From assembly GCF_001618145.1 (NCBI RefSeq), contig NZ_LQNF01000015.1:1-64000 (forward strand): a stretch of DNA of 64,000 nt. The letters are read 5' to 3'. Position 1 is the first letter of the stretch. Every line of letters starts with the position of its first letter. The stretch comes from Oceanobacillus damuensis (GTDB lineage: Bacteria > Bacillota > Bacilli > Bacillales > Amphibacillaceae). Positions 58,059-64,000 of this stretch are shown in pieces. Below the pieces are notes generated by a model. The model was not told the DNA's origin. It was given only the letters and a program-made list of their open reading frames with translations, and did not search any database. Made by a program: the position numbers and the translations under genes.

Positions 58059-58538
58059 ATGAAAATTACCATTGTGTCAGTTGGGAAACTAAAGGAAAAA
58101 TACTTAAAGCAGGGCATTCAGGAATATATGAAGCGGCTCGGAGCCTATGCAAAGGTCGATATCATTGAGGTAGCAGATGAAAAAGCACCGGAAAATATGA
58201 GTGAAGCGGATATGCAGGAAGTAAAGCGGAAAGAAGGAGACAAGATTCTCTCCCATATCAGTAACGATACATATGTCATCACTCTCGAGATTAATGGCAA
58301 AATGCTGAGCTCCGAGCAGCTCGCCGCTAAGATGGATGAGCTTGCCACTTACGGGAAGAGCAAGCTTGCCTTTGTGATTGGCGGTTCGCTCGGTATTAGT
58401 GAATCAGTGCAAAAACGGAGTGACTTTGCGCTGTCCTTCTCCAAGATGACTTTTCCTCATCAGGTGATGCGATTGATTTTGTTGGAACAGGTTTACCGGG
58501 GGTTTCGGATTAATCGGGGGGAACCGTACCATAAGTAA
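58059..58538 (+). CDS. rlmH: 23S rRNA pseudouridine-1915 N3-methyltransferase RlmH
   Basis: The 159-aa SPOUT-class enzyme methylates N3 of pseudouridine 1915 in 23S rRNA. The SAM-binding knot shows [10 protein letters not shown] and the C-terminus [18 protein letters not shown], complete at 159 aa. ACGGAGGATCG precedes the ATG. It ends the Bacillus origin synteny block. In staphylococci the end of this gene (orfX) is the integration site of SCC elements; the last 18 bases here are 58521-58538. Confidence 0.98.
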
Positions 58539-58551
58539 ATGAGGTTTTTAG

Positions 58552-58581
58552 AAGAGTGGTATTGGGACTGCTCTTTTTTTA
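58552..58581 (+). terminator. rlmH terminator
   Basis: AAGAGTGGT (58552-58560) pairs with ACTGCTCTT (58567-58575) with two wobbles, followed by T7. Confidence 0.65.
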
Positions 58582-58640
58582 TTAGCTAAATTTTCGTCCT
58601 TCAATCATATAGGAACAAATGTTTTTATTTTTATTGACTA

Positions 58641-58668
58641 TTGATAACACTTGTATTAAACTTATAAT
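58641..58668 (+). promoter_or_regulatory. Promoter of the 102-111 aa small gene
   Basis: TTGATA (58641-58646), 16 bp, TATAAT (58663-58668), about 50 nt before the ribosome site AGGAGGGG. Confidence 0.7.
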
Positions 58669-58721
58669 AACATCAATAAAATTTAATGAAAGTTTTAATG
58701 TACTAGTTAGGAGGGGACACT

Positions 58722-59057
58722 ATTTATAAGTACACTGATGCAGAGTTTATGATGGAGGTCAATGATAAGATAGGTAATGTAAGGTTATTTAAGAAACATC
58801 TAAGAAGATTAGGGTTGATTGGAAATAGGCAGCAATTCTCACATGAACACATAGAAATGTTCCAATCAGTTAAAGAATATAAAATAAAAAACCATACTAC
58901 ATGGGATTTAGCTTTTAAAAGAGGTTTGTGCACCGAGGAATTAGAAAATATTGATATTCCATTGAGGACTGTAATCTCTGAAGTTGGACAAAGTAATAAT
59001 GAGGAAATTCTTATTGAAATCTTAAAAACGTTAAAGAGCATTGAAGCAAAACTTTAA
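58722..59057 (+). CDS. Putative small DNA-binding protein, possible ATT start
   Basis: The protein was not recognised with certainty. From the ATT at 58722 it is 111 aa, opening YKYTDAEFMMEVNDKIGNV; from the first ATG (58749) it is 102 aa. The only good ribosome site, AGGAGGGG, lies six bases before the ATT; the ATG has none. NRQQFSHEHIEMFQSVKEYK resembles the helix after the recognition helix of MerR-like domains, and the C-terminus (NNEEILIEILKTLKSIEAKL) is helical. It precedes the methyltransferase by 118 nt and could be a controller of the restriction-modification pair; that role is inference. Confidence 0.6.
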   Translation: MYKYTDAEFMMEVNDKIGNVRLFKKHLRRLGLIGNRQQFSHEHIEMFQSVKEYKIKNHTTWDLAFKRGLCTEELENIDIPLRTVISEVGQSNNEEILIEILKTLKSIEAKL

Positions 59058-59175
59058 ATGCCATTACTATATAGTTATTGGAAACTAATATGCAAAGGGT
59101 AGATAAAGTGTTAGACTATAAGTTTAAAGACATATATAGGAGTAACAATCTAATCCTTTTAACAGGAGGAAAGTA

Positions 59176-61005
59176 ATGACAACAAATATGAAAGAAAAAT
59201 TGGAGAATCGTTATAAAGAACTAAAAAATATAGATAATAAAAGTTGTAACAATTTTAATATAAATGACTTTAATAATTTAAATGACAAAGATAGATTAAG
59301 TAATCCCATATTTAAAGCATACGGCTATCCAAGTAAAATATTTTATCCTAATATACAAAAATTTATTAGAGCATATACAAAAGAAGGGGCTGTTGTATTA
59401 GATTCTTTTTGTGGAAGTGGGACTACAGGAATTGCTGCTTTGATAGAAAACAGAAAAGCAATTTTATTTGATAATAGTCCTAATGCCATTCATATTACAA
59501 AAAATACATTTGCGGAAATTGATTTTAATAAAGTCGAAAAAACTTATAAAGGTCTGAAAAAAGACTTGGAAGAGATAATTAACAGACTCTATTCAACAGA
59601 AACATCTGATGGACTGGATGGTGTTGCAGAATCAATAATAACTAGTAACATTTACTCGTGTCGTAAATGTGATAATGAAATTAAACTTCATAATTCTTCA
59701 ACAGGTAAACGTTCTGAGTACAAGTGTTTAAATTGTGGAGAGGTAATTAATATTAGTAAGGCAGAAGATAAAAATCGTATTCTTGCAAGGAGAGTACCTG
59801 TTGAAGTAAATATAAGGATAATTAATGGTAAAGTAGGGAGAAAAACAGAAAAAAGAGAAGTAACAAAAGAAGATGTTATTAAGTGGAATAAAATACTGGA
59901 AGAGTATAAGCTGAAAAGTGAGCATTTATGGGCACCTACGGAAAAAGTTGTCTACAATAGAAGTTACCCGAGAACTGGAGGTTGGCCTGGTTTTCCAATA
60001 GACTCAAAAGTAAGTGACTTATTTCCAGAGAGAAATTTAATTGCCCTAAAGATATTATACAACTATATAAATGAAAAAATTTCTGATGTTGATACTAGAG
60101 ACTTTTTTATTTTTGTGTTTACCGAGTCTCTTTTTAGGTCTAGTAAGCGATTATTTACAACCTCAGGTATTAAGACAGTATATCATGTACCACCAGTTGG
60201 AAAAGAGCAAAATGTACTTTCAGTGTTTGATAGGAAATATAAAACAATAATTAAGGCTAAGAAATATATATATAGTAATTTAGTGGATGCAGTAAGCGTA
60301 AACCAAAATCTATTAGTTGAGAAACAAAATGCTAAAGATATTCCTCTGGAGGATAATTCAATTGATTATGCTTTTATTGACCCGCCTTATGGTGGAGTAG
60401 TGCCTTATGCTGAATTAAATTTATTCTATAGTGCATGGCTTAAAGAAGAAGAAGACCTTGATAATGAAGTTATTATACCAATGGATTATGATAAGAAATT
60501 AGAATTTGTTCACGATTGGGGAAGACAAATAGAAGCTGCCTTTAGTGAAGTTTATAGAGTATTAAAGCCAGGGGCTTATTTTACAATTGTCTTTCAAAGT
60601 AAGTTTAGTGAAATTTGGAATGAACTAAGGGACTTAATGGTTAATCGAATTGGTTTCCAATTTGAAAAAATTGTATCAAATGAACGTTCTACTACCTTCC
60701 ACACAAATCATTTGAATGACACTAATCCCCAAAGTGCATTTATCACTTATAGAAAACCATTGTTTGAAGAAACCAGTGTTTCAGTAGAAACTACTTCTTC
60801 CACTGAGGTATCTAGTGTATTCCGGCATATATCAAATGAGTATTTCATAGAAAAGCGTTCCTTTAGGGAAGTTCAATCATTTATAATAAATTTAGTACAT
60901 GAATTAGGACTGGAAAGAATACCCTCTGATGCGGAAATTAAACAGTGGTTAAATGAATTTTGCAATGTTAATAACAATTATTATCAGTTGAAAAAAAGCA
61001 AGTAG
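59176..61005 (+). CDS. DNA methyltransferase (N6-adenine/N4-cytosine class)
   Basis: The 609-aa protein carries the SAM motif VVLDSFCGSGTTG (about 73-85, the FxGxG motif I) and the catalytic motif DPPYGG (402-407), with motif I before IV. A zinc ribbon (C162, C165, C184, C187) is inserted between them. PIFKAYGYPSKIFYPNIQKF precedes motif I. DPPY indicates methylation of an exocyclic amino group; the specificity is unknown. It ends on a terminator hairpin shared with the convergent PLD nuclease. Composition is very A/T-rich (many Asn, Lys, Ile codons), unlike the housekeeping genes, which suggests transfer. AGGAGGAAAG precedes the ATG. Confidence 0.85.
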   Translation: MTTNMKEKLENRYKELKNIDNKSCNNFNINDFNNLNDKDRLSNPIFKAYGYPSKIFYPNIQKFIRAYTKEGAVVLDSFCGSGTTGIAALIENRKAILFDNSPNAIHITKNTFAEIDFNKVEKTYKGLKKDLEEIINRLYSTETSDGLDGVAESIITSNIYSCRKCDNEIKLHNSSTGKRSEYKCLNCGEVINISKAEDKNRILARRVPVEVNIRIINGKVGRKTEKREVTKEDVIKWNKILEEYKLKSEHLWAPTEKVVYNRSYPRTGGWPGFPIDSKVSDLFPERNLIALKILYNYINEKISDVDTRDFFIFVFTESLFRSSKRLFTTSGIKTVYHVPPVGKEQNVLSVFDRKYKTIIKAKKYIYSNLVDAVSVNQNLLVEKQNAKDIPLEDNSIDYAFIDPPYGGVVPYAELNLFYSAWLKEEEDLDNEVIIPMDYDKKLEFVHDWGRQIEAAFSEVYRVLKPGAYFTIVFQSKFSEIWNELRDLMVNRIGFQFEKIVSNERSTTFHTNHLNDTNPQSAFITYRKPLFEETSVSVETTSSTEVSSVFRHISNEYFIEKRSFREVQSFIINLVHELGLERIPSDAEIKQWLNEFCNVNNNYYQLKKSK

Positions 61006-61031
61006 ACAATTATCTACTTGTTTTTTTTTAT
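60999..61031. terminator. Terminator between convergent methyltransferase and nuclease
   Basis: CAAGTAGA (60999-61006) and TCTACTTG (61013-61020) form a stem followed by a long T run. It overlaps the methyltransferase stop. Confidence 0.85.
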
Positions 61032-62548
61032 AACCTTGTGAGCGTAGCAGTATTTTCTTGGTTTATATCAACGATTGAAAATCCTCTCAATAGGGATAAT
61101 AAAAATGGAACTCTGTGTTCTAAACTGCTTTGAGAAGGGGTTGTTAATTCTAATAGGTCTAGATATTCTATAACCGGTTCATAGCTCCAGAAATCCTCAT
61201 ACAAAGCTGAAATAGGAATTTCATTTGTGTGATATTGATTAATAAAATCTACGAGAATATTGAAGATAGATAGGTTAGCAAATAAACTATATAGAATTTC
61301 TTTAGCATTATTATCTAACCCCTTAATAAAATCAATATAGTACTCAACACGATTATGTTCCATTTTCCAACTAGTAGGAGAATCAGTTGCAAAATTGTAA
61401 AACGTTTCATCTGTCACAATTTCATTTAGTAAATGATATAAAACGTCCCCATTATCAGTTAACTTAAGTGAAAAAAGTGGATTATTTAGATTCTGAGGAA
61501 GACGATAATCTTCAAGGAACATTAATTCCATACAAGCAGCTACTTTATAATTTGTTTGACGTACGGAAGTTCCGTATTCCCCAGTGGTTGATTGATTATA
61601 TAAACTTAGTCTATAATCTAAGGAACCATCCCCAATAGATTTAATAATATAAAATATATGTCCTAAATGAACACCTTGGGGTATATTATAATAACTTTTG
61701 GTAATCCCATTTATGGTACCAACAAAGTCACTGTATGAGCCATATACGGTTTGATAAGTATCGAGATTAATTGTAAGATTTCCTTCTTCACTAGTTTGTT
61801 GAAATAAACCTGGTACTGCCCCCTCTACATTACCTGATGGAATAACTCTTTCGCCCATTGGGAGCTCTTCAAATGTGTCAGTAGTTTCATTATGCTCTTG
61901 TTCAACAGGAGGTGGTGAAACAGTCATACTACCAAAAATCCTTCTACTGTTCTGTCTATTACTAATCGTACTTCTCAATCCCCTTGTAAGCTCATCTTCT
62001 GATTTTATATATCCTTCAAATTCCAGTGTTTCAATTAATTCTAAATCTACCTTCTTACATAGGTCGTTAGATGTTTCACTATATGATGTAAAGGTTTCTT
62101 GAAGGTATTTATTATTAGCATTATCTTGTTCTAAATTTAAATCTAGCTGGCTGTAGGTGCATATCTCATTATTTGTATATAATCCTCCAGCTGTAAGATT
62201 ATTAGAACCTGTAAATACATGAGTTAAACTTTCTTCATTTAGTATATAAAGCTTTGGATGGTATGTTTGGTCGGCTTTCTCATTATGATATATAAATAAT
62301 TCATCACAAATGTTGTATAACATAATAAGAGCATCTTTTGAAGTGTTTGACTGGTCAATACCGACTACTATATTTATCGTACCGCCACGCGCTTTAAATG
62401 ATTGTAGATTTCCTAATAGTCTAATTACACCACTTTTTTTTGCGTATGCTACTAAAATTGAAAGGTTAGTAATCTCTTCTTTTTGTAATAAAGTTTCTAA
62501 GTGTGCACCCAGTGAGCCGTAATTGGGCTGATTAATAAATGTTAGCAA
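61028..62548 (-). CDS. PLD-family nuclease, likely restriction endonuclease
   Basis: From the TTG at 62548 the protein is 506 aa. It has one phospholipase-D type HxK motif, H97 and K99 in HPKLYILNEE, then GSNNLTAGGL (115-124) and E128 in NNEICTY, as in the BfiI/NgoFVII group of metal-independent restriction enzymes that dimerise to build one active site. The N-terminal region (NQPNYGSLGAHLETLL) precedes a central spacer and a C-terminal part (about 250-506) that may recognise DNA. The frame is open to an ATG at 62650, but GAGGAGGAATAAAAAA favours the TTG. Convergent with a methyltransferase, it is probably its cognate nuclease. Restriction activity is inferred. Confidence 0.75.
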   Translation of the reverse strand: MLTFINQPNYGSLGAHLETLLQKEEITNLSILVAYAKKSGVIRLLGNLQSFKARGGTINIVVGIDQSNTSKDALIMLYNICDELFIYHNEKADQTYHPKLYILNEESLTHVFTGSNNLTAGGLYTNNEICTYSQLDLNLEQDNANNKYLQETFTSYSETSNDLCKKVDLELIETLEFEGYIKSEDELTRGLRSTISNRQNSRRIFGSMTVSPPPVEQEHNETTDTFEELPMGERVIPSGNVEGAVPGLFQQTSEEGNLTINLDTYQTVYGSYSDFVGTINGITKSYYNIPQGVHLGHIFYIIKSIGDGSLDYRLSLYNQSTTGEYGTSVRQTNYKVAACMELMFLEDYRLPQNLNNPLFSLKLTDNGDVLYHLLNEIVTDETFYNFATDSPTSWKMEHNRVEYYIDFIKGLDNNAKEILYSLFANLSIFNILVDFINQYHTNEIPISALYEDFWSYEPVIEYLDLLELTTPSQSSLEHRVPFLLSLLRGFSIVDINQENTATLTRL

Positions 62549-62694
62549 TTTTTTATTCCTCCTCTTCAAAAAGTTAATAGATACTACACTAAACAAATAT
62601 AGCATATTATATAGTTCTTTTGATTTAAATAAAGCTGAATTAAATGCCAATTGGAATATATATTATTATTTTAGAAACATAAGGAGGTAAAAAT

Positions 62695-63144
62695 ATGAAT
62701 AAATCAGCAAAAAGAGTAGACGTTGTATCAGTTAAATTAGTAAAGGAATCTAGCTTGCTTTATAAAGAACGTTCAGTTAAGTCACCAGAAGATGGTTATA
62801 AACTAATGAAGCTATTTCTTGCCGATAAAGACCGTGAGCATTTCATTGTAGCTTCACTTGATATTAAGAACCAACCAGTATCGATTAATGTATGTCACAT
62901 TGGTAGTTTAAACGCTAGTATAGTACATCCTAGAGAGGTGATGAAGTCAGCAATTCTTTCTAATGCCGCATCAATAATAGTAGGACATAATCATCCATCA
63001 GGGTTGCCAGAACCAAGTAAAGAAGATATTGGGGTTACAAGGAGATTAGCAGAAGCAGGAAAAATAATAGGTATAGATGTTCTTGACCACATCATCGTGG
63101 GCGATGAATCATTCATTTCATTGAAAGAAAAAAGCTATATCTGA
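62695..63144 (+). CDS. RadC-like JAB-domain protein
   Basis: The 149-aa protein is a JAB/MPN+ metalloprotease-like domain with E48, H98-x-H100, S102 and D111 in VGHNHPSGLPEPSKED. It lacks the helix-hairpin-helix N-terminus of chromosomal RadC (about 225 aa); such short forms are common on plasmids, phages, ICEs and SCC elements. AAGGAGGTAAAAAT precedes the ATG. It begins a plus-strand run with the DUF1643 gene 14 nt later, and is divergent from the PLD nuclease. Confidence 0.9.
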   Translation: MNKSAKRVDVVSVKLVKESSLLYKERSVKSPEDGYKLMKLFLADKDREHFIVASLDIKNQPVSINVCHIGSLNASIVHPREVMKSAILSNAASIIVGHNHPSGLPEPSKEDIGVTRRLAEAGKIIGIDVLDHIIVGDESFISLKEKSYI

Positions 63145-63158
63145 AAGGAGTAAAAGCA

Positions 63159-63674
63159 GTGAAAACAACAAATAGCATTATAAAAACAGAAGTCACTTAT
63201 GATGACGAAATGAAAAACAAGTATCTTGTTAGAAAAGAGTGGGACAAGAACAAGAAAAAGGCACTTGTTATCATGAAAAATGCAGGTCAAGCGGATGAAA
63301 TCGTGCAAGACCAAACAACGATGTATGTCATTAATAACCTTTCCAAATTGGAATACGGTGTTGTAGATATTGTGAATTTATTTCCATCTATCGAAGGAAA
63401 TGAAACGAGAGAGACTGCTATTGAAAATTTGAAGTGCATTCAAGAAGCTATCACAAGAGTAGATGATGTCATTATAGCGGTCGGAAAAGGAGCAAGAACA
63501 AATAAGAAGGCTGTTGAACGATTAAACATGATTTTAGCCATATTGATAGACAAGAAGGCTAACATTCTTCAAATAGAAACGAATTTTGGTCGGAAAGGTT
63601 TCCATCCTCTCTACCATGCGCTTAAACATCAGTGGAAATTAGTACCGTATGACGATAGCCAAAAGGTGAGCTAA
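63159..63674 (+). CDS. DUF1643 family protein
   Basis: The 171-aa protein contains KKALVIMKNAGQADEIVQDQ, TMYVINNLSKLEYGVVDIVN and the C-terminal FGRKGFHPLYHAL, matching DUF1643. The biochemical role is unknown. DUF1643 genes are regular passengers of SCC elements, conjugative elements and defence islands. The GTG at 63159 has AAAGGAGTAAAAGC upstream. Confidence 0.85.
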   Translation: MKTTNSIIKTEVTYDDEMKNKYLVRKEWDKNKKKALVIMKNAGQADEIVQDQTTMYVINNLSKLEYGVVDIVNLFPSIEGNETRETAIENLKCIQEAITRVDDVIIAVGKGARTNKKAVERLNMILAILIDKKANILQIETNFGRKGFHPLYHALKHQWKLVPYDDSQKVS

Positions 63675-63701
63675 TAATATTTTATATGGAAGGAGAAAGC
63701 T

Positions 63702-64000
63702 ATGTTTGGTATAAAGCAATTGATAGATTTTATGAAAAAGGAATTCGGTGTAGTAGTTGAATTGAATGAGGTGGGAGAGGAAACGGTACTTCTATATCAT
63801 GAGGAACTAGATAAGAAACTTATTTCAGATGATGTATTGAAAATATTACCGAATCCAGTTTCATTTCACACATATATATACAATGAAGAGTCAGAGTGGA
63901 TTATTGGGATTGCCTTAGAAGCAAAAACCAATAATCCACTCTTTTTGGTTTGTCTGAAAGATGGGTTAAGGGTGTATGCAAAATTGCTAAATGAGCTGAG
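63702..64000 (+). CDS. Unknown protein, truncated by the window edge
   Basis: The first 99 codons are present. It starts MFGIKQLIDFMKKEFGVVVE and is soluble, with an acidic N-half and TNNPLFLVCLKDGLRVY near the visible end. No family was recognised. GGAAGGAGAAAGC lies before the ATG, and it is 27 nt after the DUF1643 gene, so it continues the radC operon. Confidence 0.75.
   Translation, partial: MFGIKQLIDFMKKEFGVVVELNEVGEETVLLYHEELDKKLISDDVLKILPNPVSFHTYIYNEESEWIIGIALEAKTNNPLFLVCLKDGLRVYAKLLNEL

Follow-up and report, generated by a model that had tools for sequence, protein, structure and literature searches.

Why does one family of bacterial DNA methyltransferases stand opposite nucleases of unrelated folds in different genomes, and which side of such a pair is exchanged? 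The question is raised by a locus of Oceanobacillus damuensis lying in the window, that is the whole stretch of 64,000 nucleotides analysed here (positions 1-64000 of the 100,272-base contig NZ_LQNF01000015.1, from a genome of 4.1 Mb), where a zinc-ribbon DNA methyltransferase (MTase) faces a protein of the phospholipase D (PLD) type (Table 1). We regard it as likely, with the question of the target set apart, that the two genes form a chimeric restriction-modification (RM) system carried by an element resembling the staphylococcal cassette chromosome (SCC). The basis of this reading is seen in the sequence, namely in the gene pair, the active-site residues, a C-terminal domain shared between different heads, the conserved MTase and the mobile setting; that the pair restricts DNA, and that the MTase is cognate to the PLD enzyme, is what we infer. 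What is new in the locus is a putative PLD restriction enzyme whose C-terminal half is common to a helicase-type family, placed in a slot that elsewhere also holds EcoRI.

The evidence that carries this reading comes from a relative in Virgibacillus indicus (G151), where an MTase 68% identical to that of the window faces, again convergently, an 895-aa nuclease-helicase protein. Its Pfam matches are ResIII (4e-38), Helicase_C, HNH_repeat and, below the cut-off, the PDDEXK-type MTES_1575 (0.0014; 0.0056 to 0.034 in the three other helicase-type relatives), and among solved structures its motor is closest to SauUSI (7clg, 5.6e-69). Residues 262-506 of the PLD protein correspond to residues 584-831 of this protein with 35% identity over 251 aa (9e-39), and no other stretch of the two is aligned. 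The same domain is found at 34-36% identity in L071, L073 and L075, the helicase-type partner proteins being 884-908 aa long. As judged from these alignments, the PLD protein is a chimera in which a PLD head is set on the C-terminal domain of a helicase-type family; the catalytic half seems to have been exchanged and the probable DNA-reading half kept. Moreover, the domain is rare. When 159 genomes of the family were searched with the whole PLD protein, 13 gave any match, and the C-terminal half was found only in the own genome and in V. indicus; samples of 397 and of 388 genomes held it in the own genome only, and a sample of 200 only in G932, from which one of the query rows had been taken. 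All five copies seen adjoin this MTase, and two of the four non-self copies came from searches independent of the MTase. The domain is unlike those of the seven aligned PLD proteins, and Pfam gives no family at E<=1 for this half, HNH_repeat included. A B3-like domain, for which the first-pass annotation had proposed a check, looks unlikely from these results: the half is related to the helicase-type C-terminus, its model (pLDDT 73.6) is helical with a winged-helix-like end, and Pfam lends B3 no support. A model of the full-length PLD protein was poor (mean pLDDT 56), and its Foldseek list is without meaning.

As for the other half, the residues H97, K99, N117 and E128 have the spacing 0/+2/+20/+31, equal to that of the BfiI active-site residues H105, K107, N125 and E136 (PMC4081073), and they are invariant in all eight aligned PLD proteins. 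Over residues 4-223 the protein is 39% identical to the PLD protein of G453, and in a tree of 49 PLD heads it pairs with this MTase-linked protein (support 97/88). The same tree has a 100/99 split between 40 longer PLD proteins, all of the order and 619-782 aa long within the stretches read, whose label as helicase-like is by length alone, and nine others: the window, seven RM-type or stand-alone proteins (six from plasmids and that of G453) and a 429-aa protein (L011), the test falling to 68/51 with L011 counted among the long proteins. Several of the branches are long, so that these joins could be artefacts. Clustering with the long PLD proteins is not seen in this tree; the first-pass annotation had held that clustering with non-restriction helicase-linked PLD families would speak against its reading. 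Of the six plasmid PLD proteins, four (L054, L055, L056 and L058) have an annotated MTase at most a few genes away, and L053 and L057 have none nearby. No relatives of the head were found in the viral-sequence scans, no phage record matched the PLD protein, and the head has no match to 7clg or to the PADLOC type IV models. The locus of G453 (L060:5398-8740) is a tandem one with two SPPY-type MTases and a 377-aa PLD protein, and looks like a more classical PLD restriction system; PLD restriction enzymes had been held to be rare, an opinion that is not supported, as a review calls the PLD-type ones 'far from rare' (PMC4081073).

The facing gene and the layout of the pair were for the most part described correctly before: the reading frames and motifs of a DPPY MTase with a four-cysteine zinc ribbon, opposite a 506-aa PLD protein with a single HxK, are confirmed, and both open reading frames (ORFs) are open over their annotated coordinates. 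The system was also called unusual; an RM pair is indeed the best reading, but the unusual part lies elsewhere, in the swapped head and the shared C-terminal domain. The PLD ORF starts, as read in the sequence, at a TTG with GAGGAGG upstream, the longest option being 540 aa from an earlier TTG. The genes lie tail to tail with a gap of 22 nt and a G+C content of 0.310, and this layout is conserved in four relatives, there with a different nuclease. A single terminator shared by the two genes holds in part: a hairpin does lie between them, with a T run by eye also 3' of it on the plus strand, but terminator prediction called it on the minus strand only, and its two terminators against a shuffle mean of 1.7 are not above chance. 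In the MTase, motif I is FCGSGTT at residue 78. The zinc ribbon, first taken for a peculiarity, is a property of the family, the CxxC...CxxC pattern being present in six of six complete members. Relatives were sought in the genome collection with two short peptide patterns from the alignment of the window and V. indicus MTases, a scan that distant relatives escape; it gave five, and among viral contigs there was a further one, matched over most of its length, as well as a weak match (L077, 44% over residues 60-116), which was not used. Five relatives are 54-68% identical to the window's MTase and 51-64% in the candidate recognition region, versus 26% there for Halorarius. Nine plasmid records match over 69-77% of the length at just 24-34%; among five of them inspected, one has an annotated BrxA gene nearby and one has no annotation.

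Six complete loci of this MTase family, the window included, could be compared; a seventh MTase (L074) is truncated where its contig stops, its neighbour lying outside the sequence. The partner is a helicase-type protein with the C-terminal domain in four, EcoRI in one, and the PLD head with the C-terminal domain in one. The helicase-type loci belong to V. indicus, Clostridium sp. CX1, the Ruminococcaceae metagenome-assembled genome (MAG) UBA5396 and an IMG/VR virus contig, with MTases 55-68% identical to the window's; a further search of virus contigs gave L183, which is the IMG/VR contig again, and two helicase-only matches of 24-26% that were not used. In the Lachnospiraceae MAG RUG12480, whose zinc-ribbon MTase is 71.5% identical to that of UBA5396, EcoRI (PF02963, 1e-148; 2.9e-113 to 1ckq) is flanked by this MTase on one side and by an MTase from the M.RsrI family on the other. 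Three unrelated nucleases, namely EcoRI, the predicted nuclease-helicase and the predicted PLD enzyme, serve one MTase family. Whether the two genes of the window occur independently has a divided answer: the PLD head is unmatched in the other five loci, but in four of these five the C-terminal domain recurs, attached to a different nuclease. Our literature search gave no description of such a nuclease exchange, nor of helicase-type proteins facing this MTase. Upstream of the RUG12480 locus (L072:6134-8449), a 771-aa protein matches the PADLOC candidate PDC-S06 (4e-198).

An M.RsrI-type second MTase flanks the restriction gene in four of the six loci, three of them of the helicase type. The family is matched at 2e-98 in RUG12480 and at 7.6e-115 in V. 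indicus, where the gene lies beyond the restriction gene, and with these two the flanking MTases of CX1 and UBA5396 share 59-74% identity; in L073 the contig ends within the M.RsrI-type gene. EcoRI was also found in one of the 398 genomes of a phylum sample, G707, next to an M.RsrI relative and with no zinc-ribbon MTase in the 16 kb read; this locus (L210:7263-9064) lies near a 611-aa serine-recombinase-like ORF. On the simplest reading, EcoRI alone seems to have entered the helicase-type locus of RUG12480, because the EcoRI proteins of RUG12480 and G707 are 94% identical (81.6% in DNA) and yet the M.RsrI partner groups with the helicase loci, being 55.5% identical to that of G707, 71.5% to that of CX1 and 74.4% (125 aa) to that of UBA5396. 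In the tree of M.RsrI-type enzymes, CX1, RUG12480 and UBA5396 form a group (100/98), and V. indicus lies on the other side with two EcoRI-linked enzymes. EcoRI would have been tolerated because the locus already methylated GAATTC, and its entry, if EcoRI is active, would have been viable only then. A composite ancestral locus with later losses is a possible alternative origin. Of 19 plasmid records with EcoRI, five loci were inspected, and they hold a zinc-ribbon MTase in no case, with just short or weak cross-matches.

These connections lead to the target. M.RsrI is an enzyme that modifies GAATTC. The nucleases RsrI and EcoRI both recognise this site (PMC5896346). The window enzyme may read it too, because it shares the MTase and the C-terminal domain with the helicase-type loci, and GAATTC is the leading predicted target of the system, a prediction that we hold to be about evenly poised between right and wrong. 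Beyond this, we propose tentatively, and with a little less confidence, that the MTase family is a fixed socket at which EcoRI, the motor enzyme and the PLD enzyme all act on GAATTC, the window protein being a natural motor-free and metal-independent GAATTC endonuclease. Site avoidance was tried as a proof of GAATTC and had to be rejected. In the sampled stretches, observed over expected counts are 0.77 in V. indicus, 0.78 in CX1 and 1.08 in the EcoRI-bearing RUG12480, with UBA5396 outside the sample; the controls are equally depleted, and the own genome and the EcoRI-bearing MAG show no avoidance. The IMG/VR contig has no GAATTC in 19,759 bases (0 versus 4.5 expected in the 16,634 read, the lowest of 64 palindromes), which as avoidance is weak and suggestive only. 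In the 400 kb sampled of Clostridium sp. CX1 (G930), GATATC (95 versus 147.9) and GGATCC (9 versus 30.8) are more depleted than GAATTC, pointing to other pressures.

Several observations count against our reading or against its predicted target. The matches of the PLD head lie at or below the Pfam cut-offs, that to PF13091 (2.6e-5, 24.5 bits) below 27 and that to PF09565, the N-terminal PLD domain of NgoFVII (E 3e-5, 23.8 bits), exactly at 23.8. The C-terminal domain is without convincing likeness to any solved structure, and the 35% identity in it would permit a changed target. The PLD version was seen in one genome only, so that the fusion may be inactive or have led nowhere. The window is without an M.RsrI-type gene, the family that ties the system to GAATTC, so that the guess of GAATTC presupposes that the zinc-ribbon MTase shares this target, a specificity that only its company suggests. 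GAATTC is not avoided in the host, with 157 sites versus 161 expected (0.98) and 4 versus 6.6 in the element, and the depletion in V. indicus and CX1 is matched by the control genomes G077, G073 and G148 (0.74, 0.73 and 0.77), in which the C-terminal domain was not found, though another GAATTC system may be present.

Part of these points would also be understood if the chimeric RM system were built in the same way and had another target, the M.RsrI-type gene being a separate protective MTase or the relic of a composite locus of EcoRI and the helicase protein. This is a serious possibility, albeit less likely than not. The absence of avoidance in the host agrees with it; the M.RsrI-type gene has no match in the own genome or contig besides a cross-match in the zinc-ribbon MTase, nor does it occur in the part of the IMG/VR contig that was read (16,634 of 19,759 bases); and differential loss from a composite locus would yield a similar pattern. 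However, M.RsrI-type genes adjoin the helicase protein in three of the four helicase loci, and EcoRI has no match at E<=0.1 in the stretches of V. indicus, CX1, UBA5396 and the IMG/VR contig. Moreover, EcoRI seems to have reached RUG12480 without its own MTase, and no remnant of the helicase protein is found there (best E 6.7).

In another explanation, the C-terminal domain would serve, in place of reading the target, to dock the protein onto the MTase or onto a separate motor, and the PLD head would cut only together with partners. R.CglI requires its N-protein and PLD-type enzymes with helicase partners do exist (PMC4267653), and the domain accompanies the MTase on either nuclease head. Against this, the seven element ORFs of at least 300 aa include no DEAD- or Z1-type helicase by Pfam, the smaller ORFs having been scanned in part, and in the helicase relatives the sole other candidate for reading the target is HNH_repeat, which has no Pfam match in the C-terminal half of the window protein. 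A winged-helix-like end would agree with a DNA-binding role, but this match lies close to noise: Foldseek gave nothing at E<=0.001 for the C-terminal model, and VIA-align gave winged helices with best Z scores of 9.0 for YodB and 7.8 for DpnI where the noise level of the tool is 7-8. We consider docking unlikely and recognition of DNA by this domain the probable role. That the pair is no RM system at all, and is either a leftover or an accessory of a larger defence system (BREX- or DISARM-like, with a PglX-type MTase and a DrmC-type PLD protein) or an inactive fusion, is very improbable. PADLOC does give PglXI as the best model of the MTase (4.2e-58) and DrmC, weakly matched, as that of the PLD protein (2.5e-6). 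However, BREX loci are marked by PglZ and BrxC, which have no Pfam match among the seven element ORFs of at least 300 aa (the largest of 609, 579, 561 and 506 aa), the element has no ORF above 609 aa and hence none of the size of BrxC, the MTase is much nearer to its own family (54-68%) than to the plasmid records (24-34%), and both genes are open with conserved catalytic residues.

If the pair is a chimeric RM system, it may work as follows. The MTase would methylate the target in the host, probably at N6 of adenine, so that methylated host sites are spared. The C-terminal domain would bind the unmethylated target and place the PLD dimer beside it; the two heads would dimerise into one metal-independent active site and cut the strands in turn, as in BfiI, which is a PLD dimer with one active site cutting the strands in turn without metal (PMC4081073), and incoming phage or plasmid DNA would be cut. 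The helicase relatives may do likewise with ATP-driven translocation. In the exchange, the nuclease and the superfamily 2 (SF2) motor would have been replaced by the PLD head with the recognition side retained. The most notable consequence would be that a single recognition domain can work in enzymes with a motor and in those without. The specificity of restriction is usually seen as evolving by changed recognition domains under a fixed nuclease; here the reverse seems to be visible, since the MTase and the probable recognition domain stay and the nuclease switches from one fold to another, unrelated one. Should GAATTC prove to be the target, nucleases of three unrelated kinds would become directly comparable at the EcoRI site, and the C-terminal domain could be regarded as a recognition module that is portable, with motor or without.

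An SCC-like element with a second defence gene probably carries the pair as cargo, a setting which, like the connection to EcoRI and M.RsrI, was absent from the first-pass annotation and lies partly outside the sequence it covered. The gene rlmH is the classical integration and attachment gene of SCC. The repeat at its end, searched as a 20-base pattern with <=3 mismatches, has two further copies, at contig positions 74370 and 84743, and none elsewhere in the genome (three forward matches, none in reverse, none for a reversed-pattern control), and the outer copy has 27 of 29 bases in common with the rlmH end. From rlmH to 74389 the G+C content is 0.323; the sequence to the left of this stretch has 0.396, and the second inter-repeat stretch 0.455. 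A D5-type primase (TIGR01613, 8.9e-61) lies between rlmH and the first repeat. The recombinase scores 413.9 bits for CcrB and 362.7 bits for CcrC, both below the 900-bit NCBIfam cut-off, and is by this rule a relative of ccr, not a member. The gene for the DRT2-type reverse transcriptase is followed by that for a 359-aa protein, which matches no Pfam family at E<=0.01, and the small ORF behind rlmH is possibly a regulator or another gene of the element. The second stretch, contig 74390-84762, holds genes named by eye as a LacI-type regulator, a phosphotransferase system (PTS) and sucrose/levan or glycoside hydrolase-like genes; a by-eye reading of its translations showed no ccr-like gene, and it is possibly a second, non-autonomous cassette. 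In four of 23 other genomes of the genus (L190, L195, L199 and L202), recombinase-gene-like sequence occurs within the 1.5 kb read downstream of rlmH, and SCC-like elements may be common in this genus.

Table 1. Features of the locus and its element; positions are those of the window unless marked as contig positions.
Feature	Position	Strand	Remarks
rlmH (orfX)	58059..58538	+	PF02590 5.7e-60; left attachment repeat formed by its 3' end (from 58519)
SCC-like element, left part in window	58539..64000	.	continues to contig 74389 (first right repeat) or 84762 (second)
Small ORF between rlmH and MTase	58749-59057	+	102 aa; no convincing Pfam match
Zinc-ribbon DPPY DNA methyltransferase	59176-61005	+	609 aa, N6-adenine type by motif; PF01555 3.5e-20
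Four-cysteine zinc ribbon of MTase	59659..59736	+	residues 162-187, C162-x2-C165...C184-x2-C187
DPPY catalytic motif of MTase	60379..60390	+	residues 402-405
Intergenic hairpin	60999-61020 (feature span 60989..61030)		shared by both genes; possible bidirectional terminator
PLD protein, chimeric probable restriction endonuclease	61028-62548	-	506 aa; PLD head and C-terminal domain common to helicase-type proteins
C-terminal domain, probable target-recognition domain	61031..61780	-	residues 257-506 of PLD protein
PLD nuclease head	61904..62548	-	residues 1-215; PF13091 and PF09565, both borderline
HPK active-site motif	62252..62260	-	H97, K99; sole HxK of PLD protein
RadC-like JAB-domain gene of element	62695..63144	+	PF04002 2.3e-42
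DUF1643 gene of element	63159..63674	+	PF07799 1e-20
CcrB/CcrC-like serine recombinase	contig 68728-70413		CcrB 1e-123, CcrC 3e-108
DRT2-type antiviral reverse transcriptase	contig 71693-73024 (L003:14693-16024)		PADLOC 2.8e-149; NCBIfam 387.9 bits, cut-off 390

Among known systems, the PLD enzymes BfiI, NgoFVII and NgoAVII resemble the window protein in their N-terminal PLD domain with one HxK and the BfiI spacing, in having a further C-terminal domain and in the adjacent MTase, whereas the C-terminal domain of the window is helical in its model and not a B3 barrel, the MTase is a single zinc-ribbon one and the genes are convergent. Unlike the ATP-dependent type of CglI and NgoAVII, the window has no separate gene for an SF2/Z1 N-protein among the seven element ORFs of at least 300 aa, the rest of the genome not having been searched. 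SauUSI is a type IV enzyme built of PLD, SF2 and target-recognition domains (PMC7913695); the PLD head is alike as a concept and the V. indicus motor is closest to it, but the window protein has no motor, its head does not match 7clg and it is accompanied by an MTase. With the EcoRI and RsrI systems the locus has in common the MTase family (at RUG12480), the M.RsrI-type partner in four of the six loci and the predicted GAATTC, and it differs in having neither EcoRI nor M.RsrI; EcoRI has no match in the contig of the window, so that no sequence relation to the window protein was detected. The element corresponds to staphylococcal SCC, which inserts at the rlmH 3' end and carries a ccr-type recombinase, a primase-like gene and RadC and DUF1643 genes, in each of these respects, its recombinase being a relative of ccr; it differs by its host in the Virgibacillus family, by its cargo of a PLD restriction pair and DRT2, and by a ccr-like gene that scores below the NCBIfam cut-offs. 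Finally, the helicase-type proteins differ by a PDDEXK-like head with weak Pfam support, by the SF2 motor and by the M.RsrI-type second MTase in three of four, and they are alike in facing the same, 55-68% identical MTase in convergent genes and in bearing the same C-terminal domain at 34-36% identity.

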